From Elusimicrobiota bacterium (lineage in GTDB: Bacteria > Elusimicrobiota > Elusimicrobia > Elusimicrobiales > UBA9959): a DNA stretch of 64,000 nucleotides. Location of the stretch: positions 17,831 to 81,830 of the forward strand of contig JAAYVI010000029.1 in the NCBI GenBank assembly GCA_012517235.1. The letters run 5' to 3'. The position numbers and the translations under genes are program-made. The number at the start of each line of letters is the position of its first letter. The stretch's first letter is position 1. Below the pieces are notes generated by a model. That model ran no database searches. It saw only the letters and a program-made list of their open reading frames with translations, and was not told where the DNA came from. Below are positions 11,319 to 35,496 of the stretch, piece by piece.

Positions 11319-12120
11319 AAAAGCAGGCGAAGGAAATCGCATGCATAATTTTCCCATTTGCCGTTTAGCTTGCTTGCTATTCTCGCCGCTAAAAAACCAT
11401 GACAGCTCGTAGCTTTCGGCAATTTCTCGCCGTCCCGATTGGGAAACCAGTCCCGTCGGTTTCCCCCGATAAATCGGGCCCCCCTTCCGCTACGGCCCGT
11501 CTTCAAAACCGCCGAAAGCTTTTATACATAAAGACTTTCTTTCATATATCTCGTATTATGTTTTAGGCTTAAAAACGCAAGCTTGCTTTTTTGCCAATCG
11601 TCCATTCTTCTAATCGTCTAATCTTCTTTTTTTGCTATACGTCCACACATCTAATCTTCTACGCCTCTGTTTTGCTACGCATCTATACATCTATTTTGCC
11701 GAGCAGTCGGCTTTACTTTTCTATGATAAGTGATTGAGCAGGTCTAAAAGCGGGCGAAGGGAATCGCATGCACAACTCTCACGCTCGCCGCCGCTCGCGT
11801 TCGGTCGCGCAGTCCCGCCTCGCGGTCTTCGCGTGCTCGCTCGACAACGCTGCGGCTTTCGATTCCCAACATAAAGCCGAGCAGTCGGCTTTATTTCTTA
11901 GCTAAAAGATTGAGCAAGTCTAAAAGCGGGCGAAGGGAATCGCATGCACAACTCTCACGCTCGCCGCCGCTTGCGTTCGGTCGCGCAGTCCCGCCTCGCG
12001 GTCTTCGCGTGCTCGCTCGACAACGCTGCGGCTTTCGATTCCCAACATAAAGCCGAGCAGTCGGCTTTACTTTTCTATGATAAGTGATTGAACAAGTCTA
12101 AAAGCGGGCGAAGGGAATCG
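11319..12120. repeat. tandem array of about 177-bp units each carrying the 3' end of tRNA-Gly, plus one degenerate outlying copy
   Basis: aaaagcgggcgaagggaatcg at 11746-11766, 11922-11942 and 12100-12120 (the last is the real tRNA); degenerate aaaagcaggcgaaggaaatcg at 11319-11339. Confidence 0.85.
11411..11520 (-). repeat. 110-bp dispersed structured repeat, copy 1 (inverted relative to copy 2)
   Basis: Terminal inverted repeat AGCTTTCGGC...GCCGAAAGCT; by eye about 4 mismatches over 110 bp to the reverse complement of 59297-59406. Confidence 0.9.
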
Positions 12121-12245: not shown

Positions 12246-12827
12246 TTATTTTCCGTATGTTTTCCCTATGTCAAGAAGTATAAAACTCGCATAATGCGTA
12301 GGCGTGTAATAAACGTATGTGCCTCCGCCTATTACTATTCTTTCGGGACCCCTCTCGCTTAAAGAAGGCAAGGCCGTATATTGAGTTTCTCCTATGTAAA
12401 ACTGCTGTTGAGAATCTTTCGGAAGTATTAACGTATACTCTCTGTAATATCCGTTTTCTTTGGGAGGAAGTTTTCCTTCTTTATTTTTGAAAATTTGTCC
12501 GTCTTCTTTGTAAGGAAGCTGTTCGCATTTTGCAATTTTGGAAATCAAATCCAATATGGCGTTGACTCTTCTCTGGTCGCTTATGATAGGAGTAAGAGAT
12601 TTTCCGGGATAAATATTTTCATTGGGATACTTGCAAGTTTCCCTTGTTACTTCATTATCCGTGCCAAGCTGAGGCAAAGGGATATCTATTTGAATTTTAA
12701 GGTTTTCGCTAATTTGAGATAATTGTTTTAAGGAAGAATTTTCAAATTTTTTGTCTTTTTCCTGAGAAAAAGAAGAAGATGAAAAATAAAAAAGCACAGA
12801 GAGAAGAAGGTAAGTTTTTCTTTTCAT
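12246..12827 (-). CDS. exported hypothetical protein
   Basis: Signal peptide MKRKTYLLLSVLFYFSSSSFSQ; no recognised domain. Confidence 0.6.
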   Translation of the reverse strand: MKRKTYLLLSVLFYFSSSSFSQEKDKKFENSSLKQLSQISENLKIQIDIPLPQLGTDNEVTRETCKYPNENIYPGKSLTPIISDQRRVNAILDLISKIAKCEQLPYKEDGQIFKNKEGKLPPKENGYYREYTLILPKDSQQQFYIGETQYTALPSLSERGPERIVIGGGTYVYYTPTHYASFILLDIGKTYGK

Positions 12828-12960: not shown

Positions 12961-13004
12961 TATTATAGTCCTTTTTCTGTTTGACTAAGGCAGAGGGGGA
13001 ATTT

Positions 13005-13745
13005 ATGAAAGCTAAAAAAATCATATTTTGGTCTTATTTGATAGGCTCAATATTTCTTGTTTCCAATATAATAGACTCCGAAACTCTTACTATTACTACT
13101 TATTATCCCGCTCCGTATGGCGGTTATGTCAGAATGCTTACCACGGATACTACTCTGCTTGCTAGAGACGGAGGAAATGTCGGAGTGGGCACAGCGGCTC
13201 CTAGCGAAAAACTTCATTTGGCAACCGGCAACCTTTTGGTGTCGGCGGGAAATGCTACGTTAAATAGCGGCGTTCTGGCCGTCAATGCTCCAAACGGTTC
13301 CGTTGCTAACTTTAATGACGGAACCGGCCCTTGCTGTTCTAACTATTATACCGTTTCAATAAACGAAGGAAGAGGCCAAAGGCCTACCTTGCAGTTTCAC
13401 GATGCCGGTCAAGCCGAAGGCCAGATAATATTACAGCCGGACATAGGCGGCGGACAAAGAGGGTTTAGATTCCAAAGCGTTCAAACATCTATGGGCGGAC
13501 GATTTACCGGAAATGTTTATATAGAAGGTACTTTAATGGGTATGTGCAGTATTATTTATTACGGGACGGGAGGAGCCGTGGGATGTCCGGCAGGTACCAC
13601 GGTTATGGGTTACTTCGGCGACGGTACCACTAGGCTTACGGGTTATTTAAATAATGGCGGAGATATAAATCAAGCTTCCAGTTGGAGGCCGCTTAGAACA
13701 GGCGGAGAATGGGCGGGTTGGATGTATTGCTGCAGAATACAGTAA
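13005..13745 (+). CDS. exported protein with TYYPAPYG segment and tail-fibre-like VGVGTAAPSEKLHL motif
   Basis: ATG at 13005 preceded by agaggggga RBS; hydrophobic N-terminus; TITTYYPAPYGGYVRML...NVGVGTAAPSEKLHL. Confidence 0.65.
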   Translation: MKAKKIIFWSYLIGSIFLVSNIIDSETLTITTYYPAPYGGYVRMLTTDTTLLARDGGNVGVGTAAPSEKLHLATGNLLVSAGNATLNSGVLAVNAPNGSVANFNDGTGPCCSNYYTVSINEGRGQRPTLQFHDAGQAEGQIILQPDIGGGQRGFRFQSVQTSMGGRFTGNVYIEGTLMGMCSIIYYGTGGAVGCPAGTTVMGYFGDGTTRLTGYLNNGGDINQASSWRPLRTGGEWAGWMYCCRIQ

Positions 13746-13754
13746 GGAGGAAAT

Positions 13755-14189
13755 TTGGAAAAAATAAAAGTATCTCTAAACAAATATTCTTTGCCGCAAA
13801 TAAGGTATGCCGCTTATGTTTTTACTAAGGATTTTTATGCCGAAATAAAAAAGAATAAAGATTTATGCGAAATAATGTTTTCGCCTAAGAATTCGGGCAA
13901 AAAAGTTTCTGTTAAAAGAAAATTTTTAACGGAACTTGAGGATGAAAAATTCAGGAGCGAGCTTTTTGACGCCAATAGGGAATTAAGAGAATATCTGATA
14001 AAAAGCGCTTTGGTTTATAAACCGGCGGATACCGTTAAGGAACCGGACGGATTAACCGAAGAAGAAGAAAAAGAACTGGATAAAATAATAGCGGAAGTCG
14101 AAGCTGAATTAAAGAAAGAAAAAGAGGATCCTTTGGAAATAAAAAAGACATGGGAAGAAAAATATGGCGGTAAAAATAAAAGAAAATAA
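13755..14189 (+). CDS. HxsD-like His-Xaa-Ser system protein (divergent, with acidic/basic tail)
   Basis: LNKYSLPQIRYAAYVFTKDFYAEI and FRSELFDANRELREYLIKSAL match the layout of the HxsD-like protein at 15612; next to hxsB-like gene; TTG start. Confidence 0.5.
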   Translation: MEKIKVSLNKYSLPQIRYAAYVFTKDFYAEIKKNKDLCEIMFSPKNSGKKVSVKRKFLTELEDEKFRSELFDANRELREYLIKSALVYKPADTVKEPDGLTEEEEKELDKIIAEVEAELKKEKEDPLEIKKTWEEKYGGKNKRK

Positions 14190-15615
14190 AAAGCTCGATA
14201 AAACTTCTTTCAATTTTAGAAAGATAAACGGCGGGGTAGTATTAAGCAACGATTTCGGCTGTCATTGCGTATTAAGCGAAAAAGATTTTGAAAAAATACT
14301 GAAAGGTAAAAAAATACCTTCTTACTTGGAAGAAAGACTTTCGGAAGCTGGTTTTATTTCTAAAAAAATGGATTTTGATAAGCTTTTTTCCGGCTGGCAA
14401 AAAAAGAACTCTTTTTTATATACCGGCCCTGGTTTAAATATATTCGTTCTTACTTTAAGGTGTAATCATAAATGTCTTTATTGCCAAAGCGGCGCTTTGA
14501 GTCAAAACGGAAAAAAATCCGACATGTCATGGCAAACCGCCAAAAAATCCGTAGATATGGCTTTTTCTTCTCCCAATCCCAATATATCGATAGAATTTCA
14601 AGGAGGAGAGCCTTTGGCCAACTGGCCGGTATTGGAGAAAACGGTTAAGTATGCCAGAAAAAAACAGAAGGATTCAAAAAAGAACTTATTTATAGCCCTG
14701 GTTTCAAATTTAAGCTTGATGGATGAAAAAAAAGCCGAATTTTTGCTGAAAAATGAAATTTCCATATGTACTTCTCTTGACGGACCTTCTTTTATACATA
14801 ATAAAAACCGCCCTTTTTCTTTAGGAAACTCTCACTCGCTTACTGTCAAATGGATAAAGTATTTTATGAAAAGGCATGACGAGCAAAAAGATTTGTCTTA
14901 TAGGATTTTTAAGCCCAGCGCTTTATTGACTGTATCTAAAAATTCTTTGGGATTTCATAAAGAAATAATAGACGAATATGTTTCTTTGGGTCTTGAAAGT
15001 ATTTTTTTTAGGCCTCTCTCTCCGATAGGATATGCGGCAAAATATTGGGATAAGATAGGTTATAATTCGAAAGAGTTTTTATCTTTTTACAGAAAAGGTC
15101 TCGAATATATAATATCGCTCAATTTAAAGGGTAAAAAGATATCCGAAAAAACGGCTCAAATGCTTTTGACTAAAATTTTTGATTTTAAGGATCCGGGATT
15201 TCTGGATTTAAGATGTCCCTGCGGGGCTTCGGTCGGGCAGATAGCTTATAACTGGGACGGTTCGATTTATACCTGCGACGAAGGAAGAATGATAGGTTGG
15301 GAAGGAGACGATTTTTTTAAGGCGGGAGATATAAACAAGTCTTCGTATAAAGACATAATAAACAGCTCCGCTACAAAAGGATGTATGGTAACTTCCAATT
15401 TGGAAAATCAGCCGATGTGTTTTAGATGCGCCTATAAACCGTGGTGCGGAGTCTGTCCCGCCGTCAATTATGAGGCTCAAAAAACTCCTTGGGGAAATAT
15501 AATTTCTTCTCAGCGTTGCGAAATATTTATGGGAATATTCGATATTTTGTTCGAGCTTTTAGGCAAAAAGAGAGAGTCTGAAGTCCTTAAAAGCTGGATA
15601 TCGGAGGATAAATGA
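14164..15615 (+). CDS. hxsB: His-Xaa-Ser system radical SAM/SPASM maturase HxsB-like
   Basis: LRCNHKCLYCQ (CxxxCxxC), EFQGGEPL, SPASM Cys set CPCGASVGQ...IYTCDEGR...CFRCAYKPWCGVCP; HxsA-like repeat peptide encoded nearby. Confidence 0.8.
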   Translation: MAVKIKENKKLDKTSFNFRKINGGVVLSNDFGCHCVLSEKDFEKILKGKKIPSYLEERLSEAGFISKKMDFDKLFSGWQKKNSFLYTGPGLNIFVLTLRCNHKCLYCQSGALSQNGKKSDMSWQTAKKSVDMAFSSPNPNISIEFQGGEPLANWPVLEKTVKYARKKQKDSKKNLFIALVSNLSLMDEKKAEFLLKNEISICTSLDGPSFIHNKNRPFSLGNSHSLTVKWIKYFMKRHDEQKDLSYRIFKPSALLTVSKNSLGFHKEIIDEYVSLGLESIFFRPLSPIGYAAKYWDKIGYNSKEFLSFYRKGLEYIISLNLKGKKISEKTAQMLLTKIFDFKDPGFLDLRCPCGASVGQIAYNWDGSIYTCDEGRMIGWEGDDFFKAGDINKSSYKDIINSSATKGCMVTSNLENQPMCFRCAYKPWCGVCPAVNYEAQKTPWGNIISSQRCEIFMGIFDILFELLGKKRESEVLKSWISEDK

Positions 15616-15887
15616 AGTTTAAAAGCAAAGCCGATACCTCGGTTTATTCCTTGGAAGCTCTTAAATTGGCTTCTTACATACTTGACGAATGGCAGTTTAA
15701 AATATCGACTTTCGGAGAGATAGAGGTAGACGGAGAGAATCCGGAAAAAGGATTTAAGGAATTGTTAAACGAAGCTTTGAATCAGCAATGCCGTATAGAT
15801 TTGGCTTCTAAAAATTCCAAAATAGCAAATATAATAATAACCAAAGCGGTTCTATCTGCTTTAGGCGAAAAGGAGGCGAATAAATGA
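15612..15887 (+). CDS. hxsD: HxsD-like His-Xaa-Ser system protein
   Basis: 91 aa; DTSVYSLEALKLASYIL and FKELLNEALNQQCRIDLASKNSKIANIIITKAVL; 4-bp overlap with hxsB-like gene. Confidence 0.6.
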   Translation: MKFKSKADTSVYSLEALKLASYILDEWQFKISTFGEIEVDGENPEKGFKELLNEALNQQCRIDLASKNSKIANIIITKAVLSALGEKEANK

Positions 15888-16936
15888 AGAAAAATCTCAT
15901 TATAGCCGCCGTGGTGTTAATGGGCATAGCTTTAATATATAAATATTCTTCCAAACCGAAAACTATTTCTGCGCCGGGAATTCCTTTGCCGGTTCAGAAC
16001 GAAGATGTGGGAGCATCTTTGCCGGCGGATGCCAAAAAGGTTATTTCCGAATCCGAAACCGATATAGTCGGTTCTTGTTCTAAAAATATAGCTTCAATAT
16101 TGGAGGATTTCGGTAAAATTTGGGACGTGGCTCCGGCCAAAGATAAAAAAGTGCCTTTGATAAATCAGGAAGATAGTTTGAAAATATCGGAAATGCTTGC
16201 TTCTTACGAATCATGCTCGGCATTGTCTTTAGGCGATAGAGATAAATGCGAATCTTTGCCTTCAAAATACGGTGTGGGGGGAAGACTCCTTTTTCCGAGG
16301 GAACTTTGCAAATACAAATACGATAATATAGCTTTAGCCGCATATTCAGCCGGTAAATATGAAAAAAAAGAAGTTTGTTCGGATTTTTTGTATTCTCATA
16401 ATATAGAAGGAGTTAGTGTAGAAGATTTTTGTCAAGCGCTTAAAAAAGGATTCCCTTCTGTTTGCGAAGAAATGAAAGGTAAAGTGGATAAAGATATACT
16501 AAAAGGATGTTATTTTATTTTCCCCAAAAATATAAGTTCTTGCGGAAAAGAAGCAGACTGCGCCGATTCTTATTCGGCTTATGAAGCTTTCTCTTCCGGA
16601 AAATCGGAAAAATGCTTATCTAAAGAAAGCTGTTCCGCTTTGACGAACAAATCGGAATCGTTTTGTTCTCCTCTAAAAGAAAAACTTTTAAATTTTTATT
16701 GCGAAGCTTATTCCAAAGGTCTTAAAAAAGCCGAAGAAGACGCAAAGAAAATGGAAGAAATGGAAAAAGCGAAAATAGCCGACATAGAAAAACAAAAAGC
16801 TTATGAAGAGAGAAAAAGGAAAGACGCGGAAAAAGCGGAACAAGAAAAAATAAAGGAAAAACTTAAAAGGGCCCAGGAAGATGCCGATAAGGAAATAAAA
16901 AAGTTACTTGAAAAAAGACCCGGGTCGGGAGAATAA
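15884..16936 (+). CDS. exported/membrane-anchored Cys-rich protein with C-terminal coiled coil
   Basis: N-terminal TM LIIAAVVLMGIALIYKYSS; about 14 Cys in the middle region; Lys/Glu-rich C-terminus; between hxsD-like and hxsA-like genes. Confidence 0.6.
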   Translation: MKKNLIIAAVVLMGIALIYKYSSKPKTISAPGIPLPVQNEDVGASLPADAKKVISESETDIVGSCSKNIASILEDFGKIWDVAPAKDKKVPLINQEDSLKISEMLASYESCSALSLGDRDKCESLPSKYGVGGRLLFPRELCKYKYDNIALAAYSAGKYEKKEVCSDFLYSHNIEGVSVEDFCQALKKGFPSVCEEMKGKVDKDILKGCYFIFPKNISSCGKEADCADSYSAYEAFSSGKSEKCLSKESCSALTNKSESFCSPLKEKLLNFYCEAYSKGLKKAEEDAKKMEEMEKAKIADIEKQKAYEERKRKDAEKAEQEKIKEKLKRAQEDADKEIKKLLEKRPGSGE

Positions 16937-16938
16937 TT

Positions 16939-17316
16939 ATGAAGAAGATGAAAAAAGACATAAAAAAATTTCTTACCAGCGAAGAAGGAAAAATGTTAGA
17001 CAGCGATGTGGTAAAAGCCGGTCTTACATTAGGCATACTCGGTGCGGGACTCGTAGAGGAACTCAATGCGCAGACACATTTGGTTCATACCAATTACTTT
17101 GCAAATCCGGCCACTCACGGCTGGTCGGGACATTTAAGCCATCAAAGCCACGGTTCGCATGCTTCCCACGGCTCTCACGGCTCTCATGCTTCTCACGGTT
17201 CCCACGGCTCTCACGGCTCCCACGGTTCGCATTCTTCCCACGGCTCTCACGGCTCTCACGGTTCTCACGGTTCTCACGGTTCTCACGGCTCGCATTCGAG
17301 AGGCGGATGGTGTTAA
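16939..17316 (+). CDS. hxsA: His-Xaa-Ser repeat peptide, HxsA-like (candidate RiPP precursor)
   Basis: 125 aa; leader MKKMKKDIKKFLTSEEGKMLDSD..., then 18 consecutive H-x-S units (17131-17292), ends HSRGGWC. Confidence 0.88.
   Translation: MKKMKKDIKKFLTSEEGKMLDSDVVKAGLTLGILGAGLVEELNAQTHLVHTNYFANPATHGWSGHLSHQSHGSHASHGSHGSHASHGSHGSHGSHGSHSSHGSHGSHGSHGSHGSHGSHSRGGWC
17131..17292 (+). repeat. 9-bp codon-repeat tract encoding (H-x-S)18
   Basis: Direct reading: HLS HQS HGS HAS HGS HGS HAS HGSx4 HSS HGSx6. Confidence 0.97.
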
Positions 17317-17323
17317 AATCTTT

Positions 17324-17345
17324 GGGGCGCATATATATGCGCCCC
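17324..17345 (+). promoter_or_regulatory. perfect palindromic hairpin between hxsA-like gene and next radical SAM gene
   Basis: GGGGCGCATATATATGCGCCCC, 7 nt after the hxsA stop and 7 nt before the next ATG; no U-tract follows. Confidence 0.7.
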
Positions 17346-17352
17346 GACTTTA

Positions 17353-18420
17353 ATGTGCGAAATAAAGAAAATCAAGCTTGCTCTTACTTCTTCGTGTACA
17401 TTGGCATGCAACCATTGTAAAATAGAAAAAAATAAAGATATTACTCTGGATTTTGATAAAGCAAAATCGGGAATAGATATTTTATTTAATTCTCCAGGAA
17501 AATATAAACGCTTGGAAATTTACGGCGGAGAGCCGTTTTTAAAATTTGATCTGATGAAAAAAATAGTTTCTTATGCTAAGAAAAGAATCGCTGTTAAAAA
17601 AAAGAAACTTTCGATTTCGGTCGCCACAAACGCAACTTTATTGGACAATGATAAAATTTCATGGATTAAAGACAATCATATTAACGTTTCCGTAAGTTTT
17701 TCAGGAAGCGAAGAAAGCCATAATTACAATAGAATGTATTCAAACGGACGAGGAAGTTTCTCTTCGGTATCTAAAAAAATAGATTTTCTTATAAAAAATA
17801 TAAATAGCGATTATCTGGTATGTCTTTACTGCGTAGACGGATCATTTGCGGATTCTATGAGAGAAGATTTCAAAAAAATAATATCCAAAGGATTTAAAAT
17901 AATAAACGTAGAATGTGTTTCGGGAAGAGGATGGGGCAAAAAAAATTACGAAGAATTTAAGGATGGAATGAATTTTATTTTGAATATCATAGATAAAGAA
18001 ATGAAAAATGGAAATTTTATTTTTTTGGAACCTTTCATGGAAATGCTTTACGATAGGAAATCTTGGGATTATAATTGTCCTAAGTATAGAGATCTGGAAA
18101 TGTATCCCGACGGAAATTTGGGTTTTTATCCTTTTGCTTTTATCAAATACTCGAAAGTTTTTAGAAAAATATCCATAGGTAATTGGAAAAACGGATTAAT
18201 AAAAAAATATAAAAACTGTTTTTTAGGATGTGAAAAGTGTAATGACTGCGTGAGAGATTATTATATTTTGCCTGGCCTTTCCGACGGATCTTTTGCTTAT
18301 GAAATAAGAAGCGCTTTAATAAAAAAATTTTTTTATAAAATTCTAAAAAATAAAAAAGAAAAAAACATTTCCGCATATCTTGAAAAGCTCAAAGTTATTT
18401 TTAATAAAACTTATGAATGA
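17353..18420 (+). CDS. radical SAM protein
   Basis: SSCTLACNHCKI (CxxxCxxC), EIYGGEPFLKFD; C-terminal CFLGCEKCNDC. Confidence 0.85.
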   Translation: MCEIKKIKLALTSSCTLACNHCKIEKNKDITLDFDKAKSGIDILFNSPGKYKRLEIYGGEPFLKFDLMKKIVSYAKKRIAVKKKKLSISVATNATLLDNDKISWIKDNHINVSVSFSGSEESHNYNRMYSNGRGSFSSVSKKIDFLIKNINSDYLVCLYCVDGSFADSMREDFKKIISKGFKIINVECVSGRGWGKKNYEEFKDGMNFILNIIDKEMKNGNFIFLEPFMEMLYDRKSWDYNCPKYRDLEMYPDGNLGFYPFAFIKYSKVFRKISIGNWKNGLIKKYKNCFLGCEKCNDCVRDYYILPGLSDGSFAYEIRSALIKKFFYKILKNKKEKNISAYLEKLKVIFNKTYE

Positions 18421-19408
18421 TCCTATAAGTATTTTTGAAGCGGTAAAAAAATATGGCTGGCCTAAGCCGGGAAGCGAGGTGAAAAGTTCGGAAATAATTT
18501 TGGGGGATTTTTGCAATGCGAAATGTTTTTTTTGCTGTGCCCAAGGATCTTCCGAATGGATGCCTTTAAATGAGGTAAAAACACACATAAAAAAAGCTTT
18601 TAAAAAAGGATGTTGGCTCATATCTTTTACCGGCGGAGAAGCCGCCTTATATCCTCATATAGTTTCCGCATTGTCGTATGCCAAAAAATTAAAAATTCCC
18701 ATGATACAAATAGTATCTAACGGAATAGCATTTTCAAATTTTTCTTTTGCCAAAAAAGTCGCTTTTTACGGAGCCAATGAAATAAAACTTTCTCTTCATT
18801 CCGTTAATTCGGAAAGACACGATAGATTTGTAGGAGTAAAAGGCGCTTTTAAAAATATTATGTCTTCCATAGAAAATTTTAATAGGTTAAGAGTAAAGGT
18901 TTCTTGTAATTTTGCGGTTATGAAAGAAAATTATAATGAGCTTCCTTTATTTGTAAAATTTATGGAGAAAAATAGATTGACCGGTTTTTGTTTTATGTTC
19001 GGATTCTTTTCGGGAAAAAATTCTTATCGAGGAGCGGGGATTTCTTATTCTCGGTTAAAACCGTATTTATTGACCGCTTTAAATTATATTAAGATAAAAA
19101 AAATACCGATAGAAACGGCAATGATAAGCAACTTTGTTCCTTGTATTTTGCCGGGATATGAAAATATTATGTCCGATTGGGGAGATATTAAATCCGTATC
19201 CTCGGTTATTTCCGATGAAAATAAAAAGAAATCAAACAGAGAAATATATGCGGCAAGGAAAACATTAATAGACTCCTGTGCAAAATGCGTATATGTTAAA
19301 ATATGCTATGGCATAGAAAAGGCATATTTGGAGAAATTCGGCGATATGGAGTTTAAACCTTTGCTTAAAATACCTTCTAAAAAAATTTATGATCCTTTGT
19401 ATTTATGA
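18413..19408 (+). CDS. radical SAM protein, HxsC-like group
   Basis: CNAKCFFC, SFTGGEAALYP, tail PCILPGYENIMSDW...CAKCVYVKICYGIEKAYLEKFGDMEFKP; start placed at the overlapping internal ATG. Confidence 0.82.
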   Translation: MNDPISIFEAVKKYGWPKPGSEVKSSEIILGDFCNAKCFFCCAQGSSEWMPLNEVKTHIKKAFKKGCWLISFTGGEAALYPHIVSALSYAKKLKIPMIQIVSNGIAFSNFSFAKKVAFYGANEIKLSLHSVNSERHDRFVGVKGAFKNIMSSIENFNRLRVKVSCNFAVMKENYNELPLFVKFMEKNRLTGFCFMFGFFSGKNSYRGAGISYSRLKPYLLTALNYIKIKKIPIETAMISNFVPCILPGYENIMSDWGDIKSVSSVISDENKKKSNREIYAARKTLIDSCAKCVYVKICYGIEKAYLEKFGDMEFKPLLKIPSKKIYDPLYL

Positions 19409-20700
19409 AAAAAAAAGAATATAGAAAAGCCGTTTCCTTGATACATAATGTAAAATACGGAGGATTGCCTACTCACTATCCTTCTTTACTTTCGTGGAGT
19501 AAGACCAAAAATCTAAGTAAAATTTCCAAACTTTGGGAAGAATATTTTTTCAAAGATTCCAACGAACCTTTTTCGGTTTATATTCATATACCTTTTTGCG
19601 CCACTAAATGCCGTTTTTGTTTTTTGCAGATAAATTCAAAAAAAAATGTTCCCGACGAATATTTGAATGCTTTAATCGATGAGCTTGTTTATTTTAAAAA
19701 AATGGGCTCTATCAGAAAAAAAACAGATAGCGTTTACATCGGCGGAGGAACACCAAATCTTATGACGGCCGCCCAAATCAAAAAATTGGGAAAAGCTCTT
19801 AAAGAAAATTTAGATTTGTCTTCTTGCCGGCAAATCATAATGGAATCCAATCCGGGATTTTGGGACGATGAAAAAATAGAAGAGGCTTTAAAAATGGGGG
19901 TAAATGCGATAATATCCGGAGTTCAAAGTTTTGACGAAGATATCTCAAGTTTAAACAATAGAACTCAGAATATGGATAATTTTTTTAACGTAATAAATAA
20001 ATTCAAAAATAACGGCGTGCTGGTTAATATTGACATGCTTTTGGGATTATCGGGTTCTCGTGAAAATTTTCTCAAGGATTTAAAGCTTCTTGCAAAGACG
20101 TATCCTCATCAAGTTCACTTAAATAGAATTAAACCTTTAAAAGAAAATCAAATATTGATTGAAAAAAACCGGCTTAAAGATATGCAAAATAAGGCTTTTT
20201 CCTTTTTGGAAAAAATAGGATATAAAAGGATAGACGAAGATTCTGCTTCTTTGTTTGGCGGCAGAAACATAAATATTCAGGGAAATCCTTCCTATCAAAT
20301 TTATTCCACTATTTTAGGCTTGGGATCGTCGGCAATGGGGCATATATTCGGAAAGTTGAGATATAGAAACGAGAAAGATTATAAAAAATATTGTCTAAAA
20401 GCGTCTTGCGGAATTTTGTGTTGCGAAATAAACGAAAAAATATCCGAAAAACAAGAAGTTATACATTACTGCCTTAATAAATTATCCGACGGGAAAGTAA
20501 TTATATCCGAGCTTAAAAATATATTTTCCGAAAAAGCCGCTAATTATGCTTTAAAAAAACTAAATAAAGCCGTGGCTTTAAAATTGGCTTTGAAAAGGAA
20601 CGGCGATTATTATACTGCCGGCGAAACCGATTTCTTTGCTTTAACGGTTTTGTTTTACGAAAAAAAGTATTTGAAAAAAATCGCCAAAATTAAAATATGA
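19405..20700 (+). CDS. HemN/HemW-like radical SAM protein (possible class C methyltransferase)
   Basis: YIHIPFCATKCRFCFLQ; VYIGGGTPNLM; GVQSFDEDI...NRTQN. Confidence 0.82.
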   Translation: MKKKEYRKAVSLIHNVKYGGLPTHYPSLLSWSKTKNLSKISKLWEEYFFKDSNEPFSVYIHIPFCATKCRFCFLQINSKKNVPDEYLNALIDELVYFKKMGSIRKKTDSVYIGGGTPNLMTAAQIKKLGKALKENLDLSSCRQIIMESNPGFWDDEKIEEALKMGVNAIISGVQSFDEDISSLNNRTQNMDNFFNVINKFKNNGVLVNIDMLLGLSGSRENFLKDLKLLAKTYPHQVHLNRIKPLKENQILIEKNRLKDMQNKAFSFLEKIGYKRIDEDSASLFGGRNINIQGNPSYQIYSTILGLGSSAMGHIFGKLRYRNEKDYKKYCLKASCGILCCEINEKISEKQEVIHYCLNKLSDGKVIISELKNIFSEKAANYALKKLNKAVALKLALKRNGDYYTAGETDFFALTVLFYEKKYLKKIAKIKI

Positions 20701-21722
20701 GAATATCGATGAAAACTCTTGATGCCGTCGAAAAATACAATTGGCCTTATTATAGGACAAAGGTATGCGAACTTACTCTTAATTACGATTGCAATGCCAG
20801 ATGTGTTTTCTGCTATAGTTCTCCCGAAATGGAAGAATGGAAAAATAAAAACAGATTGGATATAAAAACCGCTGCTTCTTATATGAATAATTCTTATAAA
20901 ACTGGCTCGCGGGTGCTTCAGATAATAGGAGGAGAGCCTACGGTATATCCTTGGCTTTCTGAAATAATAAAAATAGGTAAAAAGATAGGATATCCGGTAA
21001 TACAAATAGTTACAAACGGACAAAAAGCCTCGGATTTTAATTATCTAAAAAATCTTAAACAATCCGGACTTAATTCGATAACATTTTCAATACATGCTCC
21101 GGACAAAAAACTTCACGATTCTATCGTGGGAGTAAGAGGAGCTTTTTCCAAAATAATAAAAGCTTTGGAAAACTCGATTAAATTGGAGATATATCCTTCG
21201 GTAGGAACGGCCGTGAACGCGCTAAATTATAAAAAAATACCGGCCTTGGTAAAATTTTTACATGATCGCTACAATATAGAGTCATATCATATAATAGCTA
21301 TGCATTTCATAGGCGCCGCTGGTAAAAATGAAAAAGAACTTTCGGTTTCTTACTCGCAAACCTTGCCTTATATAAAAGACACTTTAAAATTTTTATCTTC
21401 CAAAAGGATTATGCCGATATCGGCTTTGCTTAGTAATTATCAGCCTTGTCTTTTGCCGGGATGCGAACATATAATAAGCGATTGGAAGATTCCTTTTTGC
21501 GACGACGATTTGTATTTGCCGGAAAAAGTTTACAAAGATTCTATGTATTCTATGATAACCGATACTTTAAGGATGAAGGGGGTAAACTGCGAAAAATGCA
21601 TATATTCGGGCATTTGCGCCGGTTTTGAAAGAAGGTATTACGATATTTACGGAGATAAAGAGTTTAAACCTTTAAAATCGGCGGCCAAACCGATTTCCAT
21701 GGGCGTTTTCTATTCAAGATAG
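20697..21722 (+). CDS. radical SAM protein, HxsC-like group
   Basis: CNARCVFC, IIGGEPTVYP, tail PCLLPGCEHIISDW...CEKCIYSGICAGFERRYYDIYGDKEFKP. Confidence 0.82.
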   Translation: MRISMKTLDAVEKYNWPYYRTKVCELTLNYDCNARCVFCYSSPEMEEWKNKNRLDIKTAASYMNNSYKTGSRVLQIIGGEPTVYPWLSEIIKIGKKIGYPVIQIVTNGQKASDFNYLKNLKQSGLNSITFSIHAPDKKLHDSIVGVRGAFSKIIKALENSIKLEIYPSVGTAVNALNYKKIPALVKFLHDRYNIESYHIIAMHFIGAAGKNEKELSVSYSQTLPYIKDTLKFLSSKRIMPISALLSNYQPCLLPGCEHIISDWKIPFCDDDLYLPEKVYKDSMYSMITDTLRMKGVNCEKCIYSGICAGFERRYYDIYGDKEFKPLKSAAKPISMGVFYSR

Positions 21723-21734
21723 CGGGAGGGAAAA

Positions 21735-22451
21735 ATGAAAAGTAAAAAAGCTCTGATTTTATATAGCGGCGGAAAAGATTCTCATTTAGCTCTTCTATAT
21801 TCGGTTAAAAAAGGTTATCAACCTATCATATTTAATATTTGCGGAGGGAAAAAACATCATATATTTTTTTCCCAATATGAAGACTTAAATATTATAAAAA
21901 CTCATGAAAAACTGATGAATTTAAAGATAAATTATTTTAAAATAAGAGAATTTAAACCCATAGATATATTCAAAGAGATCGTGAAAAAATTTACCGAATT
22001 ATCTGGCGAAGCCGAAGATAAAGCATACTTTTCAAGCAATGATCATCAAGAGTTTAAAAAGGATAAAAAAATAAATATGGAATTTAAAAAAATATGTCAA
22101 AAATACGATATAAAATTCGTCTCTTTTTTTGATATTATAAAAAAAGACGATTTTTATTCGCCCATAAAAGAATCCTTAAAAAATAAAATAAATTCGGTAA
22201 TCATAGGGCTAGAAAGAAATTTTGAAAAAGAAATGCTTTTAAAAAAAATAGATAATGTCTTCATTTCTTTTGTAAATAAAAAAATAAGAGAAGGGGAAAA
22301 GATAGATTCAAATTCATATCAAAGCTTGGTGTTGGATTCTCCTTTGTTTAAAAAAGGTAAAATCAAAATAATTAAATACGATTATTTTTACGATCCTAAA
22401 GATATTAGATATTTTGCCAAAATAAAAGATTTTAAAATCATAAAAAAATGA
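21735..22451 (+). CDS. PP-loop ATP pyrophosphatase, Dph6 (diphthine--ammonia ligase)-like
   Basis: ALILYSGGKDSHLALLYSVKKGY PP-loop; Dph6-like layout. Confidence 0.65.
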   Translation: MKSKKALILYSGGKDSHLALLYSVKKGYQPIIFNICGGKKHHIFFSQYEDLNIIKTHEKLMNLKINYFKIREFKPIDIFKEIVKKFTELSGEAEDKAYFSSNDHQEFKKDKKINMEFKKICQKYDIKFVSFFDIIKKDDFYSPIKESLKNKINSVIIGLERNFEKEMLLKKIDNVFISFVNKKIREGEKIDSNSYQSLVLDSPLFKKGKIKIIKYDYFYDPKDIRYFAKIKDFKIIKK

Positions 22452-23791
22452 AGTTCATTTTTAATAATCCCTTATTTTTAGGCAAAAGAAAAGCGTTTGT
22501 AAGCGAGTACGGAGATTTTTTCTTTCAAAATAAAAAAGCTCTTGATATTAAAAAAGCCGAAAAAAATAATTTTATAACGGACAAATTGGATTTGGATAAG
22601 ATAATAAAATCTATTTTTTTAAGATACAATTTGGGGTGGAAAGGTCCTCATACTCATATAATATCTTTGACGAGAAAATGTTTCGGCAAATGCTCTTACT
22701 GCGCCGTTTCCTGTAAGCCTTCGGGAAAAGATATGTCCTGGAATACGGCGAGAAAAACAATAGATTTTATTTTTTCTATTCCGCGAGAAGAATTTTTTAT
22801 TGAGTTTACCGGAGGAGAGCCGGTATTAAATTTTAAAGTTTTAAAAAAATCTATTCTTTATGCAAAAGAGAAAGCCAAGCGTTTAAATAAGAAAGTTTAT
22901 ATTTCCGTCGTTACTTCTTTGGCTTATGAAAATAAAGATTTGATAAATTTTTTTATAAAAGAAAATATAACGGTTTGTTCTTCTTTGGACGGTCCCAAAG
23001 GAATTCACGATAAGAATAGATTTTCTCAAAACAATAAAAGCGCTTTCGACCTGACGGTAAAAAATATTATAGAAATATCGGCCGCCGCAAAAAAAGGATT
23101 ATGCGAATACCCGAATTTAATATCTACTATAACAAAAGATTCTTTGGGTAAAGAAAGAGAAATAGCGGATTCTTATCTAAAATTGGGCGTAAAAAGAATA
23201 CAATTGGGCATGCTCGAACCTTTGGGCCGAGCTTATTCTTCAAAACTTTATATAAGCGCGAAAGAATATTTCGATTTTTACAAAAAAGCCGTCAAGCATA
23301 TATTGAAACTAAATGAAAAATATTCGGTTTATGAAAAGGGGCTTTTTTTAATCGTTTACGATATTTTAAAAGGCTCGGCCAATCCCAAAAGAAGTTTGGA
23401 TATTTTCCATCGTTTGGCTTACGATTTTGAGGGAAATATTTATCCTTCCGACGAAGCCAGAATACTCGGAGAAAACGGGGATACTTCTTTGGCCGTAGGT
23501 AATATTTATAAAGATTCTTTAAATTCGGTTTTAAAAAAGCCCGAAACGAGGTTTTTTTTATCTTATAATTTGAACAATTACTTATCTCCTTTTTGCGCAA
23601 GATGTCCGTATTCTCTTTGGTGCAGAGTCCCGATTTATTATAATTATTTTGTTCAAAACTCTATTTGGGGCAATATGGTTAATAGCGAAAGATGTGAAAT
23701 TATGAAGAGTATATTTAATTTTGCTTTTTATTTGCTTTCGAATAAGAAAACCGAAAAAATTTTAAAAAAGTGGGTCGAAGAATACGTTTAA
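22448..23791 (+). CDS. radical SAM protein, HxsB paralogue with degenerate SPASM domain
   Basis: CFGKCSYCAVSC, EFTGGEPVLNF, VCSSLDGPKGIHDKNR; otherwise parallels 14164 but lacks several SPASM Cys. Confidence 0.8.
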   Translation: MKFIFNNPLFLGKRKAFVSEYGDFFFQNKKALDIKKAEKNNFITDKLDLDKIIKSIFLRYNLGWKGPHTHIISLTRKCFGKCSYCAVSCKPSGKDMSWNTARKTIDFIFSIPREEFFIEFTGGEPVLNFKVLKKSILYAKEKAKRLNKKVYISVVTSLAYENKDLINFFIKENITVCSSLDGPKGIHDKNRFSQNNKSAFDLTVKNIIEISAAAKKGLCEYPNLISTITKDSLGKEREIADSYLKLGVKRIQLGMLEPLGRAYSSKLYISAKEYFDFYKKAVKHILKLNEKYSVYEKGLFLIVYDILKGSANPKRSLDIFHRLAYDFEGNIYPSDEARILGENGDTSLAVGNIYKDSLNSVLKKPETRFFLSYNLNNYLSPFCARCPYSLWCRVPIYYNYFVQNSIWGNMVNSERCEIMKSIFNFAFYLLSNKKTEKILKKWVEEYV

Positions 23792-30095: not shown

Positions 30096-30935
30096 ATGAA
30101 AATTCAAGTAGGAATAGGCTGCGAGGAAGAATTTTTATATTTTTTAAAATCCGGCGCCGACGAATTCTATGCGGGAATATCGGATTTGCCGGGGCATTTA
30201 TACGGCGGAAAAAATTTTCCGGATGAGAAAAGTTTCTTAAAATGCGCTGAGAAAGCCCGCTCTCTGGGAAAAAAATTTTATGCCGTGGCCAATGAAGTAA
30301 GAGGGGATTTATTCGAGAATACTTTAAATAAATCAGTTTATTTGGTTAAAAACGGCGCCGACGGCTTAATAGTAAGAGACATATCGCTTCTTAGAGAAAT
30401 AAAAAGATTGAATTTGAAATGCGAAATAATTTTGAGTAGTTTGGCTTTGTGCTTTAATAAGAGAACGCTTGATTTTTACGCCGATATGGGCGTTACAAGA
30501 TTGGCTTTGCCGGAACAGCTCGAGCCGAAAGAAGCCGAGCCTTTGATAAAAAATAACCGCAAAGTGGATGTGGAGGTCTTCCTTACGGCCAGAGAGTACT
30601 GCGTAGTACTTAACGGATTTTGTTATTTGAAAAAATTTAACGGCGAATGCATATGCCGGGCCGGATTTAAAGGCGATAAAGGAATATTTGCAATGCCGAG
30701 ATTTTCTTTGGCCGATCACTATTTAAATCTTTACGAATTTTATAAGGCGGGCGCGCGCATTATTAAGATAGGAAGACATCCTTCAAAAGATTATGCGAAA
30801 ATAATATTTAAACAGGCCCTATCCGTAAGAGATATTTTATATTCTTCTTTGTCGAAGGAAGATTTTTTGAAAAAAGCTTTAAGAGCGCACGAAAAATTCG
30901 GAGAATTTCTTTTAAAATGGAAAAAAAGAAGATAG
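30096..30935 (+). CDS. U32 family protein, UbiU-like
   Basis: GIGCEEEFLYFLKSGADEFYAGI; GADGLIVRDISLLREI; REYCVVLNGFCYLKKFNGECICRAG (C-x6-C...C-x-C). Confidence 0.82.
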   Translation: MKIQVGIGCEEEFLYFLKSGADEFYAGISDLPGHLYGGKNFPDEKSFLKCAEKARSLGKKFYAVANEVRGDLFENTLNKSVYLVKNGADGLIVRDISLLREIKRLNLKCEIILSSLALCFNKRTLDFYADMGVTRLALPEQLEPKEAEPLIKNNRKVDVEVFLTAREYCVVLNGFCYLKKFNGECICRAGFKGDKGIFAMPRFSLADHYLNLYEFYKAGARIIKIGRHPSKDYAKIIFKQALSVRDILYSSLSKEDFLKKALRAHEKFGEFLLKWKKRR

Positions 30936-31615
30936 AAAGGGCTTTTTTTATCCACGGCCGCTGGCCTGAAAATAAAGTGAAACTTAAAAAAAACTTTATT
31001 TGTTTGGGAAGCGAATTTTGTCCGAAGCTTATTCCCGCCGAAAATGAATTTAAAAAAGCTCTGTCTTACGATCCCGCGGGAATATGTTTGTATACTTCTT
31101 TTTTGAGCCAAAAAGAGTTTGAAGAAAATACTTCTTTTTTAAATGCTATTTTAAAAAGATTTCCGGATACCGAAGTAATGATAAACGATCCGGGTTTGCT
31201 TTTATGGTTAAATGAAAATTTTCCGAAAGTAAAAAAAGGCATAGCAAGACCTCTTTCCGTGGAGTTTATGAGAATGCCCTATGAAAAGCTTAAAATTTTC
31301 ATGTCGGAAAATAAGCTTTCTTCTTTGGAAACGGACGAAGCAGATCTTTTGAAAAATTTTCCCAAAAAAAGAAGTTTTTCCGTTTATTTAAGAAAAGAAT
31401 ATGTTTTTTCGGCGATGAGCAGATTTTGTCCTTTTACGCGCAAGATTTCCGGAAATTGTTTATTCGAATGTAAAAAAGGAAAAAAGATTTTTTCCGTTCC
31501 CAATAGTTCCGTAAAGATGATATCTTACGAAAAAGCTTATTTTACATACGCTGAGAATATTGTCGGCATTTTTTCGGCTGACAGAATAGTCGAAGATATT
31601 TTTGAGAAAATATGA
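30917..31615 (+). CDS. U32 family-related protein, UbiV-like partner
   Basis: FICLGSEFCPKLIPAENEF; KIFMSENKLSSLETDEADLL; MSRFCPFTRKISGNCLFECKKG (C-x9-C-x3-C); overlaps the UbiU-like gene. Confidence 0.65.
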   Translation: MEKKKIERAFFIHGRWPENKVKLKKNFICLGSEFCPKLIPAENEFKKALSYDPAGICLYTSFLSQKEFEENTSFLNAILKRFPDTEVMINDPGLLLWLNENFPKVKKGIARPLSVEFMRMPYEKLKIFMSENKLSSLETDEADLLKNFPKKRSFSVYLRKEYVFSAMSRFCPFTRKISGNCLFECKKGKKIFSVPNSSVKMISYEKAYFTYAENIVGIFSADRIVEDIFEKI

Positions 31616-33243
31616 CGGTTGAAAGTTTAAAAGCCAAGAACCTTTTAAAAATAAAAAATTTTTTTTCGGTCCCCGATTTTTTTGTTTTAGAATACAAAAG
31701 ACTCTCTCCTTTCTTGGATAAAGGGCTATTGAATAAAAAAAAGAAAACTCTTTTTTTGGATGCTGTCAAAAAATCCGCGCCCAAAAATTTTTTTTCCGAA
31801 AAAGAAAAGTTTATAGCCAGATCGGTTTATCCGTATAAATCGGAGATTAAAAAAAAATACTGCGGAATTTTTGCAAGCGAAGCGTTCGAATTTCCCGCGG
31901 GCCTTTTCGAAGCCTGCGAAAAAGTAATAAATTCTTATTATTCTTCGGATAAATTTTTATATGAAAATAAGCGCGAGTCAAATATTAAACCGGAAATAAT
32001 GTTTCAAAAATACGCGGAAGGAATAAAAATTACCGCTTTATTTGAAAAAAACGGAAATTTTTACGGAGAATGGATTTCCCAAAAAAGAAAAGAAAGGTTC
32101 TATTGCAGAATAGGAGGCAATTCTTATTTTTCGGATTTTGAAGCTTCGGACGAAGCCGGAGACGCTTTGTCGATTTTTGCCAATAGAGGTTTTGAACTTT
32201 GCGAAATATTGGAAGCTAAAAATGTTTTGATAGAATTTATTCTCAAAGACGGAGTTTTATTTATAGTTCAAGCTTCGCCGTGGAAAAAAGAAATACCTTG
32301 CGATATTTTCGTTAGATTCGAAAATGAGGCAAATTACGATTTTCATCCAAGAGATTTCGACGCTTCTTTTTCCAAAGAGTTCATTAAAAAAATCGGAATA
32401 AAATCCGCCCTTAATTTCAATATTAACGATAATGGCGTTTTTTTAAATTTGAAAGAGATTTTAGATTTCGAAAAAGAATTGTCTATAAAAGCGAAAAATA
32501 AAAGTTTTTTTTCCGATATGCGTTTTTTATACCTGGATTTTTTAAAAAAAGAATTAATCTCGTCTTCCGAAGCTAAAAACGCCGAAGATGCTCTGTTAAG
32601 CCTTAAAAAAACTAATTCAAGGGCGGCTTTTTTAAATTTTATTTTGACAAGAGCTTTTTTATTTCTCGGCCAAAACCGCAATATTAAAAATAAATACCAT
32701 TATTTTCTCCAATTTCGTCATTCCTTTAAAAAGTATTATTCCGCGGCGGTAAATCGCTATTATCTAAAAATAAAAGAAGAAAATATTTCTTTGGATTATG
32801 ATAAGCTATCCGAAATTTGTAAAATTTCAGATAAGAAAGCGGAGGAATCACTTTTTTTAAAAGAAATTTCTTTATCCAAATCAAAGAAAAAAAGAGCCGA
32901 ATTATTAAAACCGGATTTTCCGCTAAAAGGGATTGTTCTTTCGAGCGGATTTGCGAAAGGTAAGATAAAAATAATAAACGGTCCGAAAGACGCTTATGAT
33001 TGCGGGCAAGACAATATTGCGGTAAGCCGTTACTTTGACAGAGATACGGTTTCGGCTTTAATTCGAGCCAAAGGTCTTATAACCTCTGCGGGCGGATATT
33101 ATTCTCATGCGGCCGTTTTGGCGAGAGAATTAAAAAAACCATGTATAGGCGCGATTTCCGGCTGCGATAGGATTTTTATAGACGGAGAGGAAGCGATAAT
33201 AAAGGACGGAAGGATTTTCAGAGATGAAAAGAATAGACGTTAA
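31612..33243 (+). CDS. ATP-grasp/PEP-utilizing-enzyme mobile (His-swivel) domain phosphotransferase, dikinase-like
   Basis: C-terminal GKIKIINGPKDAY...GLITSAGGYYSHAAVLARELKKPCIGA with swivelling His; N-terminal divergent PPDK_N-like region; lacks the PEP/pyruvate-binding barrel of full-length PEP synthase. Confidence 0.72.
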   Translation: MTVESLKAKNLLKIKNFFSVPDFFVLEYKRLSPFLDKGLLNKKKKTLFLDAVKKSAPKNFFSEKEKFIARSVYPYKSEIKKKYCGIFASEAFEFPAGLFEACEKVINSYYSSDKFLYENKRESNIKPEIMFQKYAEGIKITALFEKNGNFYGEWISQKRKERFYCRIGGNSYFSDFEASDEAGDALSIFANRGFELCEILEAKNVLIEFILKDGVLFIVQASPWKKEIPCDIFVRFENEANYDFHPRDFDASFSKEFIKKIGIKSALNFNINDNGVFLNLKEILDFEKELSIKAKNKSFFSDMRFLYLDFLKKELISSSEAKNAEDALLSLKKTNSRAAFLNFILTRAFLFLGQNRNIKNKYHYFLQFRHSFKKYYSAAVNRYYLKIKEENISLDYDKLSEICKISDKKAEESLFLKEISLSKSKKKRAELLKPDFPLKGIVLSSGFAKGKIKIINGPKDAYDCGQDNIAVSRYFDRDTVSALIRAKGLITSAGGYYSHAAVLARELKKPCIGAISGCDRIFIDGEEAIIKDGRIFRDEKNRR

Positions 33244-34126
33244 GATAACATTTAATTGCAATAATCTTTGCGATTTCTGCGCTCAGGGATCGAAACGAAG
33301 CAGCATTAAAATGAAAAGTCTTGCCGAAATCAAAAAAATACTTTCGGACGCAAGAAGAAATAAAGTGGACTCGGTTGTTTTTACAGGCGGAGAGCCCACA
33401 TTGCATCCTAAAATTTTAGAAATAGTTTCTTATGCCAAAAAAATAGGATTTTCCAAAATACAGCTTCAAACAAACGGAAGAAGTTTCGCTTATTACGACT
33501 TTTGTTTGAAACTTAAAAATGCGGGCGTAAACGAAATGGGGCCTTCTCTTCACGGATCCAAACCGGAGATACACGAAAAACTGACAAAAGCTCCGGGAAG
33601 TTTCGCTCAAACGGTAAAAGGAATAATCAATTGTAAAAAACTCGGCATGTATGTTCTAACAAATTCCGTTATAACTTCTTTAAATTATAAAGATTTGCTT
33701 TCTTTGGCCAAGCTTTTGACAAGATTGGGCGTAAGTCAATATCAATTTGCTTTTGTTCATATAATAGGAACGGCTTGGGAAAACAAGGATTGGATAGTGC
33801 CGCAAAAAAAAGACATTATGCCTTATGTGAAAAAAGGTCTTGATATCGGAATAAAGAAAGGCATACCTTGTTTTACCGAAGCCATTCCTTATTGTCTTAT
33901 GAAAGGATATGAAAACTGCGTGGCCGAAGCCGTTATTCCGGAAGGTCCCGTCGCCGATGCGGACGTATATGTGGAAAACTACGGCGAGTATAGAAGAAAC
34001 GAGGGTAAAATTAAGAGAAAAGAATGTTCCAAATGTTATTATTTTAAGGCTTGCGAAGGCCCTTGGCGCGAATATCCCGAGATATACGGCTGGGAAGAGT
34101 TTAAGCCGGTTTTAAAAAAGAAATGA
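33224..34126 (+). CDS. radical SAM protein, HxsC-like group
   Basis: CNNLCDFC, FTGGEPTLHP, tail PYCLMKGYEN...CSKCYYFKACEGPWREYPEIYGWEEFKP. Confidence 0.85.
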   Translation: MKRIDVKITFNCNNLCDFCAQGSKRSSIKMKSLAEIKKILSDARRNKVDSVVFTGGEPTLHPKILEIVSYAKKIGFSKIQLQTNGRSFAYYDFCLKLKNAGVNEMGPSLHGSKPEIHEKLTKAPGSFAQTVKGIINCKKLGMYVLTNSVITSLNYKDLLSLAKLLTRLGVSQYQFAFVHIIGTAWENKDWIVPQKKDIMPYVKKGLDIGIKKGIPCFTEAIPYCLMKGYENCVAEAVIPEGPVADADVYVENYGEYRRNEGKIKRKECSKCYYFKACEGPWREYPEIYGWEEFKPVLKKK

Positions 34127-35496
34127 AAATAAACTTTGAAAAAATAGGTAAAAAATATTTTTTATCTTCGGAAGACGGAGATTATATTCTATTGTCTAAA
34201 AAAGAATTTTCCGATTTTAAGAAAAAAGAGTCGATTATAATCAAAAAAGGAAAGCGTTTAATAGAGGAAAAACAAGCTTTGGCTTTTTGCGAAAACTATA
34301 ATTCTTTAAAAAAATATTCTTTCTCTCCCGCGAGCCTTCATATAGTCGTTTTGACTCATAAATGTAATCATGCCTGCGTTTACTGCAGAGCTTCGAAATT
34401 CGGCGAATCGAATAAGCCCGCCATGGACGAAAAGACGGCCGAAAAAACTGCCGATTTTATACTTTCTACTCCTTCGAAAAATATTACGGTAGAGTTTCAA
34501 GGAGGAGAAGCTTTTTTAAATTGGGATATTCTGGTAAAGTCGGTAAATTTCCTTAAAAAGAAAAATATTAAGGCAAAAAAAGACTTGGAAATATCGGTCG
34601 TTACCAACTTATCTCTGGCGGATGAAAAAAAACTTCTTTTTCTCGAAAAGGAAGGCGTTTCCGTATGTACTTCTTTGGACGGTCCAGCCGAAATTCACGA
34701 TAAAAACAGACTTTATTTTTCCGGTTCTTCTTACGCTTTAACCGAAAAATGGCTTAAATTCTTAAACGAAAGAGCTTCAAAAAAATCTTACGCCAAAGAC
34801 TCTTTGCCTTCGGCTTTGATGACTACCACGCGGTTTTCTTTAAATAATCATAAAGAAATAATAGACTGCTACGAAAAACTTAAATTGGGCGGTATTTTTT
34901 TGCGTCCTCTTTCGCCCATAGGATATGCGAAAAATGTTTGGGATAAAATAGGATACGAACCTCGCGATTTTTTGAAATTTTACGAAAAAGCCTTGGATTA
35001 TATCCTCGAAAAAAATTTGAAAGGAATAAAATTTATAGAAAGAAATGCGGCGATAAAACTAAATAAAATACTTTTTTCTCAAGATCCGAATTTTTTGGAT
35101 TTAAGAAGCCCTTGCGGAGCAGCCCTGGGTCAGTTGGCTTATGACTGCGACGGTTCGATATATACTTGCGACGAAGGCAGGATGACGGCTTCGGCCGGCG
35201 ACGATTTTTTTAAGGTCGGCAATGTTTTTAATTCTTCTTATAAAGAAGTTTTGAATTCTCCGGCCGCAAAGATATGTTCAATTTGTTCGTGTCTTGAAAA
35301 CCAGCCTTCTTGCTTTAGATGCCCTTTTAAGCAATGGTGCGGAGTTTGCCCGGTTCATAATTATGAAACTTCCAAAAGTCCCTGGGGCAATAAAGGATTT
35401 TCCGGCTGGTGCGAAATCGAAAAAGGTATTTTTAAAATTTTAATAGAAAGAATAGAAAATAAAAAATATTTGCGCGTCTTTCGGGGATGGTTTTAA
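34123..35496 (+). CDS. radical SAM/SPASM protein, HxsB paralogue with intact SPASM Cys
   Basis: CNHACVYC, EFQGGEAFLNWD, VCTSLDGPAEIHDKNR, PCGAALGQLAYDCDGSIYTCDEGR, CFRCPFKQWCGVCP. Confidence 0.85.
   Translation: MKINFEKIGKKYFLSSEDGDYILLSKKEFSDFKKKESIIIKKGKRLIEEKQALAFCENYNSLKKYSFSPASLHIVVLTHKCNHACVYCRASKFGESNKPAMDEKTAEKTADFILSTPSKNITVEFQGGEAFLNWDILVKSVNFLKKKNIKAKKDLEISVVTNLSLADEKKLLFLEKEGVSVCTSLDGPAEIHDKNRLYFSGSSYALTEKWLKFLNERASKKSYAKDSLPSALMTTTRFSLNNHKEIIDCYEKLKLGGIFLRPLSPIGYAKNVWDKIGYEPRDFLKFYEKALDYILEKNLKGIKFIERNAAIKLNKILFSQDPNFLDLRSPCGAALGQLAYDCDGSIYTCDEGRMTASAGDDFFKVGNVFNSSYKEVLNSPAAKICSICSCLENQPSCFRCPFKQWCGVCPVHNYETSKSPWGNKGFSGWCEIEKGIFKILIERIENKKYLRVFRGWF

Follow-up and report, generated by a model that had tools for sequence, protein, structure and literature searches.

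A variant His-Xaa-Ser repeat-peptide locus with an unusually large radical-SAM battery in an Elusimicrobiota bacterium

Gene content of the locus

The window, by which we mean the whole 64,000-nucleotide stretch of contig JAAYVI010000029.1 that was analyzed, carries a gene for a histidine- and serine-rich repeat peptide at 16939-17316 of the forward strand (hxsA). The 125-residue product, HxsA4, consists of a leader (residues 1-64), an (H-x-S)18 core (17131-17292, residues 65-118) and the tail SRGGWC. Its ATG start codon lies 2 nt past the stop of the preceding gene, with GGGAG 7 nt 5' of it. The identity of the gene rests on NCBIfam NF038313, on 42 aligned homologues and on selection at the codon level. 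The original prediction read the tract from 17131 as HLS HQS HGS HAS HGS HGS HAS, four HGS, HSS and six HGS followed by HSRGGWC, and this reading is exact, with 18 perfect triplets.

The genes next to hxsA lie on the same strand. Directly upstream is ORF350 (15884-16936), a putative membrane-anchored, Cys-rich coiled-coil protein that matched no Pfam or NCBIfam family. Homologues occur in 27 of the 40 stretches fetched from relatives, and ORF350 is a candidate for a new partner in the system described below. Further upstream are HxsD-like protein 1 (HxsD1, 13755-14189), which holds the same position in relatives; HxsB1 (14164-15615), a radical SAM/SPASM maturase with an RRE-like N-terminal domain (residues 16-82); and the HxsD-like paralogue HxsD2 (15612-15887), which aligns with HxsD1 and is found in many relatives. 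Downstream of hxsA follow radical-SAM proteins of PapB-like (17353-18420; NF047865 138.7 bits, below the cut-off of 340; CTLACNHC), HxsC (18416-19408; TIGR03977 74.4 bits; C-terminal CxxCx5CxG), HutW/HemW-like (19405-20700; TIGR04107 149 bits, below the cut-off of 400) and again HxsC type (20697-21722; TIGR03977 114 bits; CxxCx5CxG), then an N-type ATP-pyrophosphatase (Diphthami_syn_2, 21735-22451; PF01902 E=4.8e-11). Next comes the gene for HxsB2 (22448-23791; TIGR03978 284 bits, below the cut-off of 370), an HxsB paralogue by its alignment and list of cysteines. In HxsB2 and in the homologues from L032, L034 and L035, equivalents of HxsB1 C351, C353 and C371 are missing and D372 is kept; this loss of cysteines suggests a changed auxiliary cluster.

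Several further features lie in or near this cluster. A tandem repeat of 176 bp (11698-12120; 2.4 copies, 93% matching) precedes a reverse-strand gene for a secreted barnase-like ribonuclease (12246-12827; PF00545 E=9e-12), also present close to the Hxs locus of L037, L046 and L047. On the forward strand, 12981-13745 encodes a protein that is membrane-anchored, carries the motifs ITTYYPAPYGGY and GVGT-x-APSEKL and is found upstream of HxsD1 in many relatives and, with a 91-aa query, in single copy in this genome. Directly 3' of hxsA is a perfect hairpin (17323-17344, GGGGCGCAT...ATGCGCCCC). We rejected it as a general control of precursor and enzyme expression: a comparable stem follows hxsA in 5 of 38 homologues versus 7.7% of random stretches, a strong one being present in L037 and absent in L036, and most relatives have none.

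A second cluster, also on the forward strand, begins with a radical-SAM gene of HxsC4/HxsC type (33224-34126; NF038332 150.8 bits, below the cut-off of 500) and continues with HxsB3 (34123-35496; TIGR03978 428.3 bits, cut-off 370), an HxsC-like enzyme (35487-36383; TIGR03977 171.3 bits, profile positions 33-289 of 292) and a putative prepilin-peptidase-like (A24) membrane protein (36380-37558; Peptidase_A24 E=0.012 over its full length), whose D26 and GDxK are kept in L035. These are followed by radical-SAM enzymes of HxsC4 type (37555-38496; NF038332 137.5 bits), PapB-like type (38486-39544; NF047865 81.2 bits) and, twice, HxsC type (39541-40716, NF038332 89.8 and TIGR03977 83.3 bits; 40700-41551, TIGR03977 74.3 bits). 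A SufS-like cysteine desulfurase comes next (41548-42771; TIGR01979 253.8 bits, below the cut-off of 475) and is a possible source of Fe-S clusters or sulfur. The region just before the cluster, 30096-33243 (forward strand), encodes a 543-aa protein with a C-terminal PEP-utiliser mobile domain (PF00391 E=2.5e-13) as well as two further ORFs, one of which looks U32-peptidase-like by eye; several relatives carry comparable genes in the vicinity of hxsA.

In all, the interval from 14.2 to 41.6 kb contains 13 radical-SAM genes, of which three are HxsB-type, seven HxsC-type, two PapB-like and one HutW/HemW-like. CxxxCxxC is kept in all 13 proteins, and the C-terminal CxxCx5CxG is common to the seven HxsC-type enzymes. 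Since the whole 1.94-Mb genome holds only 37 PF04055 matches, a random spread would hardly place 13 of them within 27 kb (Poisson 1.6e-14). Inspection of ORF translations reveals that a shikimate-pathway block on the opposite strand splits the two clusters. In L040, L042 and L047, members of both cluster types sit immediately 3' of hxsA and share one strand, so that, judged by gene order, the two clusters probably form one system. The order HxsD-HxsB-(HxsD2)-ORF350-HxsA followed by a radical-SAM battery recurs among relatives, with 0-11 radical-SAM genes per stretch (median 6) in the 40 stretches fetched.

Thirteen enzymes are far more than a single repeated reaction requires, and they face one HxsA, the sole one of the genome. 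Together with a second cluster that has no obvious precursor of its own, this imbalance would fit a battery that modifies several substrates, such as other surface proteins, with HxsA one among them. Against it stands the arrangement in L040, L042 and L047. We regard several substrates as possible while leaning against them, and the idea is compatible with the modification of HxsA4 by its neighbors that we favor below.

The HxsA4 precursor and its family

HxsA4 scores 82.5 bits against "His-Xaa-Ser repeat protein HxsA4" (NF038313, cut-off 55), and HxsB1 scores 468.5 bits against its own profile (TIGR03978, cut-off 370). The HxsD-like proteins, at 40.9 and 20.5 bits, lie below the TIGR03976 cut-off of 50, and the best HxsC-like score, although it covers nearly the whole profile, lies below the TIGR03977 cut-off of 267.9. 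From the HxsA4, HxsB and HxsD-like scores, the repeat peptide belongs to the predicted His-Xaa-Ser (Hxs) system, which owes its name to Haft and Basu, as cited in PMC9062424. The family is thus, on its profile matches, already named and not new, and by gene content the locus is a variant Hxs system whose radical-SAM battery is unusually large. A survey of 341 genomes of the phylum found HxsA4 in 93, HxsB (E<=1e-60) in 92 and both in 87 (Fisher P=5e-67, kinship ignored); the six genomes with HxsA4 only contain weak matches only. A search by name of the open-access literature, which mostly excludes subscription journals, returned no chemistry for any Hxs enzyme. The candidate RiPP precursor of the original prediction therefore holds up as a member of a curated RiPP-like precursor family with adjacent modifying enzymes and selection on His and Ser, while its membership in the Hxs system had been missed.

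The core is under selection at the level of codons. Eleven different DNA sequences encode its 18 units. Relative to the consensus codon, His and Ser codons show 14 synonymous and 0 non-synonymous deviations, versus 6 and 5, respectively, for Xaa codons. Comparison with the homologue in L032, a MAG of the same genus whose HxsB is 81% identical to the one here, reveals 25 synonymous codon differences and no non-synonymous one across the core. The corresponding counts for L034 are 43 and 4, and comparing both sequences places those four changes at Xaa positions. Core differences that are synonymous only argue strongly that the tract is translated and selected as protein and is not a drifting DNA repeat. 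That is to say, on codon usage the HxsA4 repeat is a maintained gene and not a simple DNA-repeat artefact. A 4-unit HxS pattern found no second site in the 1.94-Mb genome (reversed control, 0), nor does the genome encode a further HxsA-like peptide in which this leader precedes a different core.

Across the 42 homologous precursors, which carry 9-33 tandem repeats, His and Ser are each fixed in register at 97%, and Xaa is Gly in 77% and otherwise S, A, T, V or Q. Tails vary more widely: RGGWC or an extension of it ends 15 of the 42, an aromatic residue (Y, W or F) 25, and GT the remaining 2. The terminal Cys, proposed earlier as an attachment point, is unlikely to be essential for attachment because it is not general among homologues.

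Alignment of the leader with those of 41 homologues, the comparison that the original prediction had called for, reveals a common K-x-I-K-x-FL-x-SEEGK followed by a short hydrophobic stretch (LGIxG). In the HxsA4 leader these correspond to the helix KKDIKKFLTSEEGKMLDSDVVKAG and the stretch LTLGILGAGLV, which is followed by an LNA/Q site. Leaders of homologues usually end in an A-x-A-like sequence (DQASAQ, APAA, LLAQ, SSEAAC), often followed by H-x-N-Y; these ends were judged by reading the alignment, as an automatic search often took GAG or GAA within the hydrophobic stretch. A conserved hydrophobic stretch with a signal-peptidase-I-like A-x-A region renders doubtful the earlier statement that there is no clear Sec signal, and these signal-peptide-like ends suggest export of the HxsA4 product. 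No dedicated exporter was identified within the window. Prepilin-type cleavage of the leader by the A24-like protein is possible, given a Gly ahead of the hydrophobic stretch, but the residue at +5 is something other than Glu.

Predicted modification of the repeat

An AF2 model of HxsB1 (pTM 0.86) places a beta-beta-beta-alpha-alpha-alpha order in its N-terminal domain, as in PqqD-like RRE domains. Among PDB folds the best match is CteB (5wgg, E=2e-21), end to end, followed by anSME with a target-normalised TM of up to 0.84. The HxsD1 model contains a confident strand-helix-strand-strand-helix-helix core without a significant match in a fold search of the PDB (best E=0.036); on this order, together with the lack of a match, we rejected HxsD as the RRE. 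By its profile scores HxsB lies nearer to thioether-forming enzymes (PapB, SCIFF) and sulfatase maturases than to the cyclophane-forming GrrM or YhhB. HxsB1 reaches 44.7 bits against YhhB (cut-off 445) and 45.5 bits against GrrM/OscB (cut-off 310), which places it outside the known 3-CyFE families, and no other cyclophane profile is among its best 25 profile matches.

In outline, the precursor is very probably modified by the neighboring radical-SAM enzymes, with its leader held by HxsB and hydrogen abstracted from Ser C-beta. The RRE-like domain of HxsB would hold the leader helix (K-x-I-K-x-FL-x-SEEGK...DIVKT), probably in partnership with the small HxsD proteins. HxsB and HxsC-type enzymes would then remove a C-beta hydrogen at each Ser while moving along the repeats, a step that we infer from SPASM homology and the His/Ser register. 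On gene order, the remaining radical-SAM enzymes of the joined clusters may act on HxsA4 or prepare it. The hydrophobic stretch and A-x-A-like site could allow cleavage and export, which would place a rigidified, His-rich repeat outside the cytoplasm.

Of the steps in this mechanism, the identity of the product is the least secure. We favor, with somewhat less than even confidence, a crosslink from the imidazole of His(i) to the C-beta of Ser(i+2) in each triplet, which would produce a chain of small rings. Such a bond would explain the fixation of both His and Ser. Crosslinks from i to i+2 have precedents in MscB (Phe-Ser), HaaB and ScaB (His-Ala) and YhhB (His-Arg) (PMC11002830). Crosslink chemistry is not implied by homology, because of the greater closeness of HxsB to the PapB/SCIFF and sulfatase-maturase profiles.

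That same likeness to sulfatase maturases makes formylglycine a legitimate, and the main, rival to the crosslink. The same Hxs system would instead convert each Ser to formylglycine, placing an aldehyde at every third residue beside His, or would alter one residue in some other way, for example by epimerisation or hydroxylation. The enzyme anSME, whose fold ranks second, acts on the C-beta of Ser or Cys, and pairwise alignment sets HxsB1 C371-D372 on its PCD motif, the Asp of which is catalytic. What formylglycine leaves unexplained is the fixation of His at i-2, equal to that of Ser, though recognition or metal binding might explain it. We consider this outcome unlikely, less so than any reading that follows. 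The mass test of the original prediction would not, by itself, separate it from the crosslink since each changes the mass by -2.016 Da per repeat.

A metal-binding tail (Ni, Zn, Cu), unmodified or merely processed and with radical-SAM neighbors present for other reasons, would suit strictly spaced His in up to 33 repeats; His-rich repeats commonly bind metal. It would leave the equally strong conservation of Ser and the nearly one-to-one co-occurrence of HxsA4 and HxsB in the phylum without a cause, none of the listed genes was recognised as one for metal transport or a metal enzyme, and we judge it improbable. A collagen-like or phage tail-fibre-like Gly-Ser-His triple helix, hinted at by weak matches in the GSH GSH register (Pfam Collagen 24.5 bits, cut-off 27.2; PHROG tail fibre E=8.6e-6), is scarcely credible and contradicted by the register statistics, as the fixed residues are His and Ser and not a Gly at every third position, the core has no proline and no other tail genes were recognised at the locus.

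Significance and relation to known systems

If some dozen radical-SAM enzymes from three or four subfamilies (HxsB-, HxsC-, PapB- and HutW-like) worked sequentially on HxsA4, the His-Ser crosslink would extend into a continuous ring chain. We hold this full version to be unlikely; if true, the product would be a modified polymer of Elusimicrobiota, structural or on the surface, whose chemistry has yet to be described. Such a large battery around a single peptide is striking, and its joint action would be new for a ribosomal peptide. The locus is of moderate interest, rising to high if the enzymes act together on HxsA4. The naming of the Hxs system rested on sequence alone; the very regular substrate, intact enzymes and genomes of close relatives found here make the fate of His-x-Ser directly testable.

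Three known systems bear comparison. The solved folds closest to HxsB are those of anSME and the SCIFF maturase CteB, the latter over its full length, but the HxsA4 repeat offers no Cys for thioethers and the sulfatase motif is absent. Triceptides, made by three-residue cyclophane enzymes (MscB, HaaB, ScaB, YhhB), share aromatic-x-residue triplets and SPASM radical-SAM enzymes with this locus, and a bond from His(i) to C-beta(i+2) is known there; in contrast, HxsB falls far below the YhhB and GrrM/OscB cut-offs and the triplet product here is a prediction. The closest likeness in gene content is to the Hxs system itself (TIGR03976-03978, NF038313 HxsA4, NF038332 HxsC4), with HxsA4 and HxsB above curated cut-offs and HxsD-like and HxsC-like genes adjoining a tandem HxS precursor. 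The locus differs in HxsC-like and HxsD-like proteins that score below those cut-offs, in its two HxsD-like, three HxsB-type and seven HxsC-type proteins, and in its additional PapB-like, HutW-like and ATP-pyrophosphatase genes and conserved extra partner ORF350.
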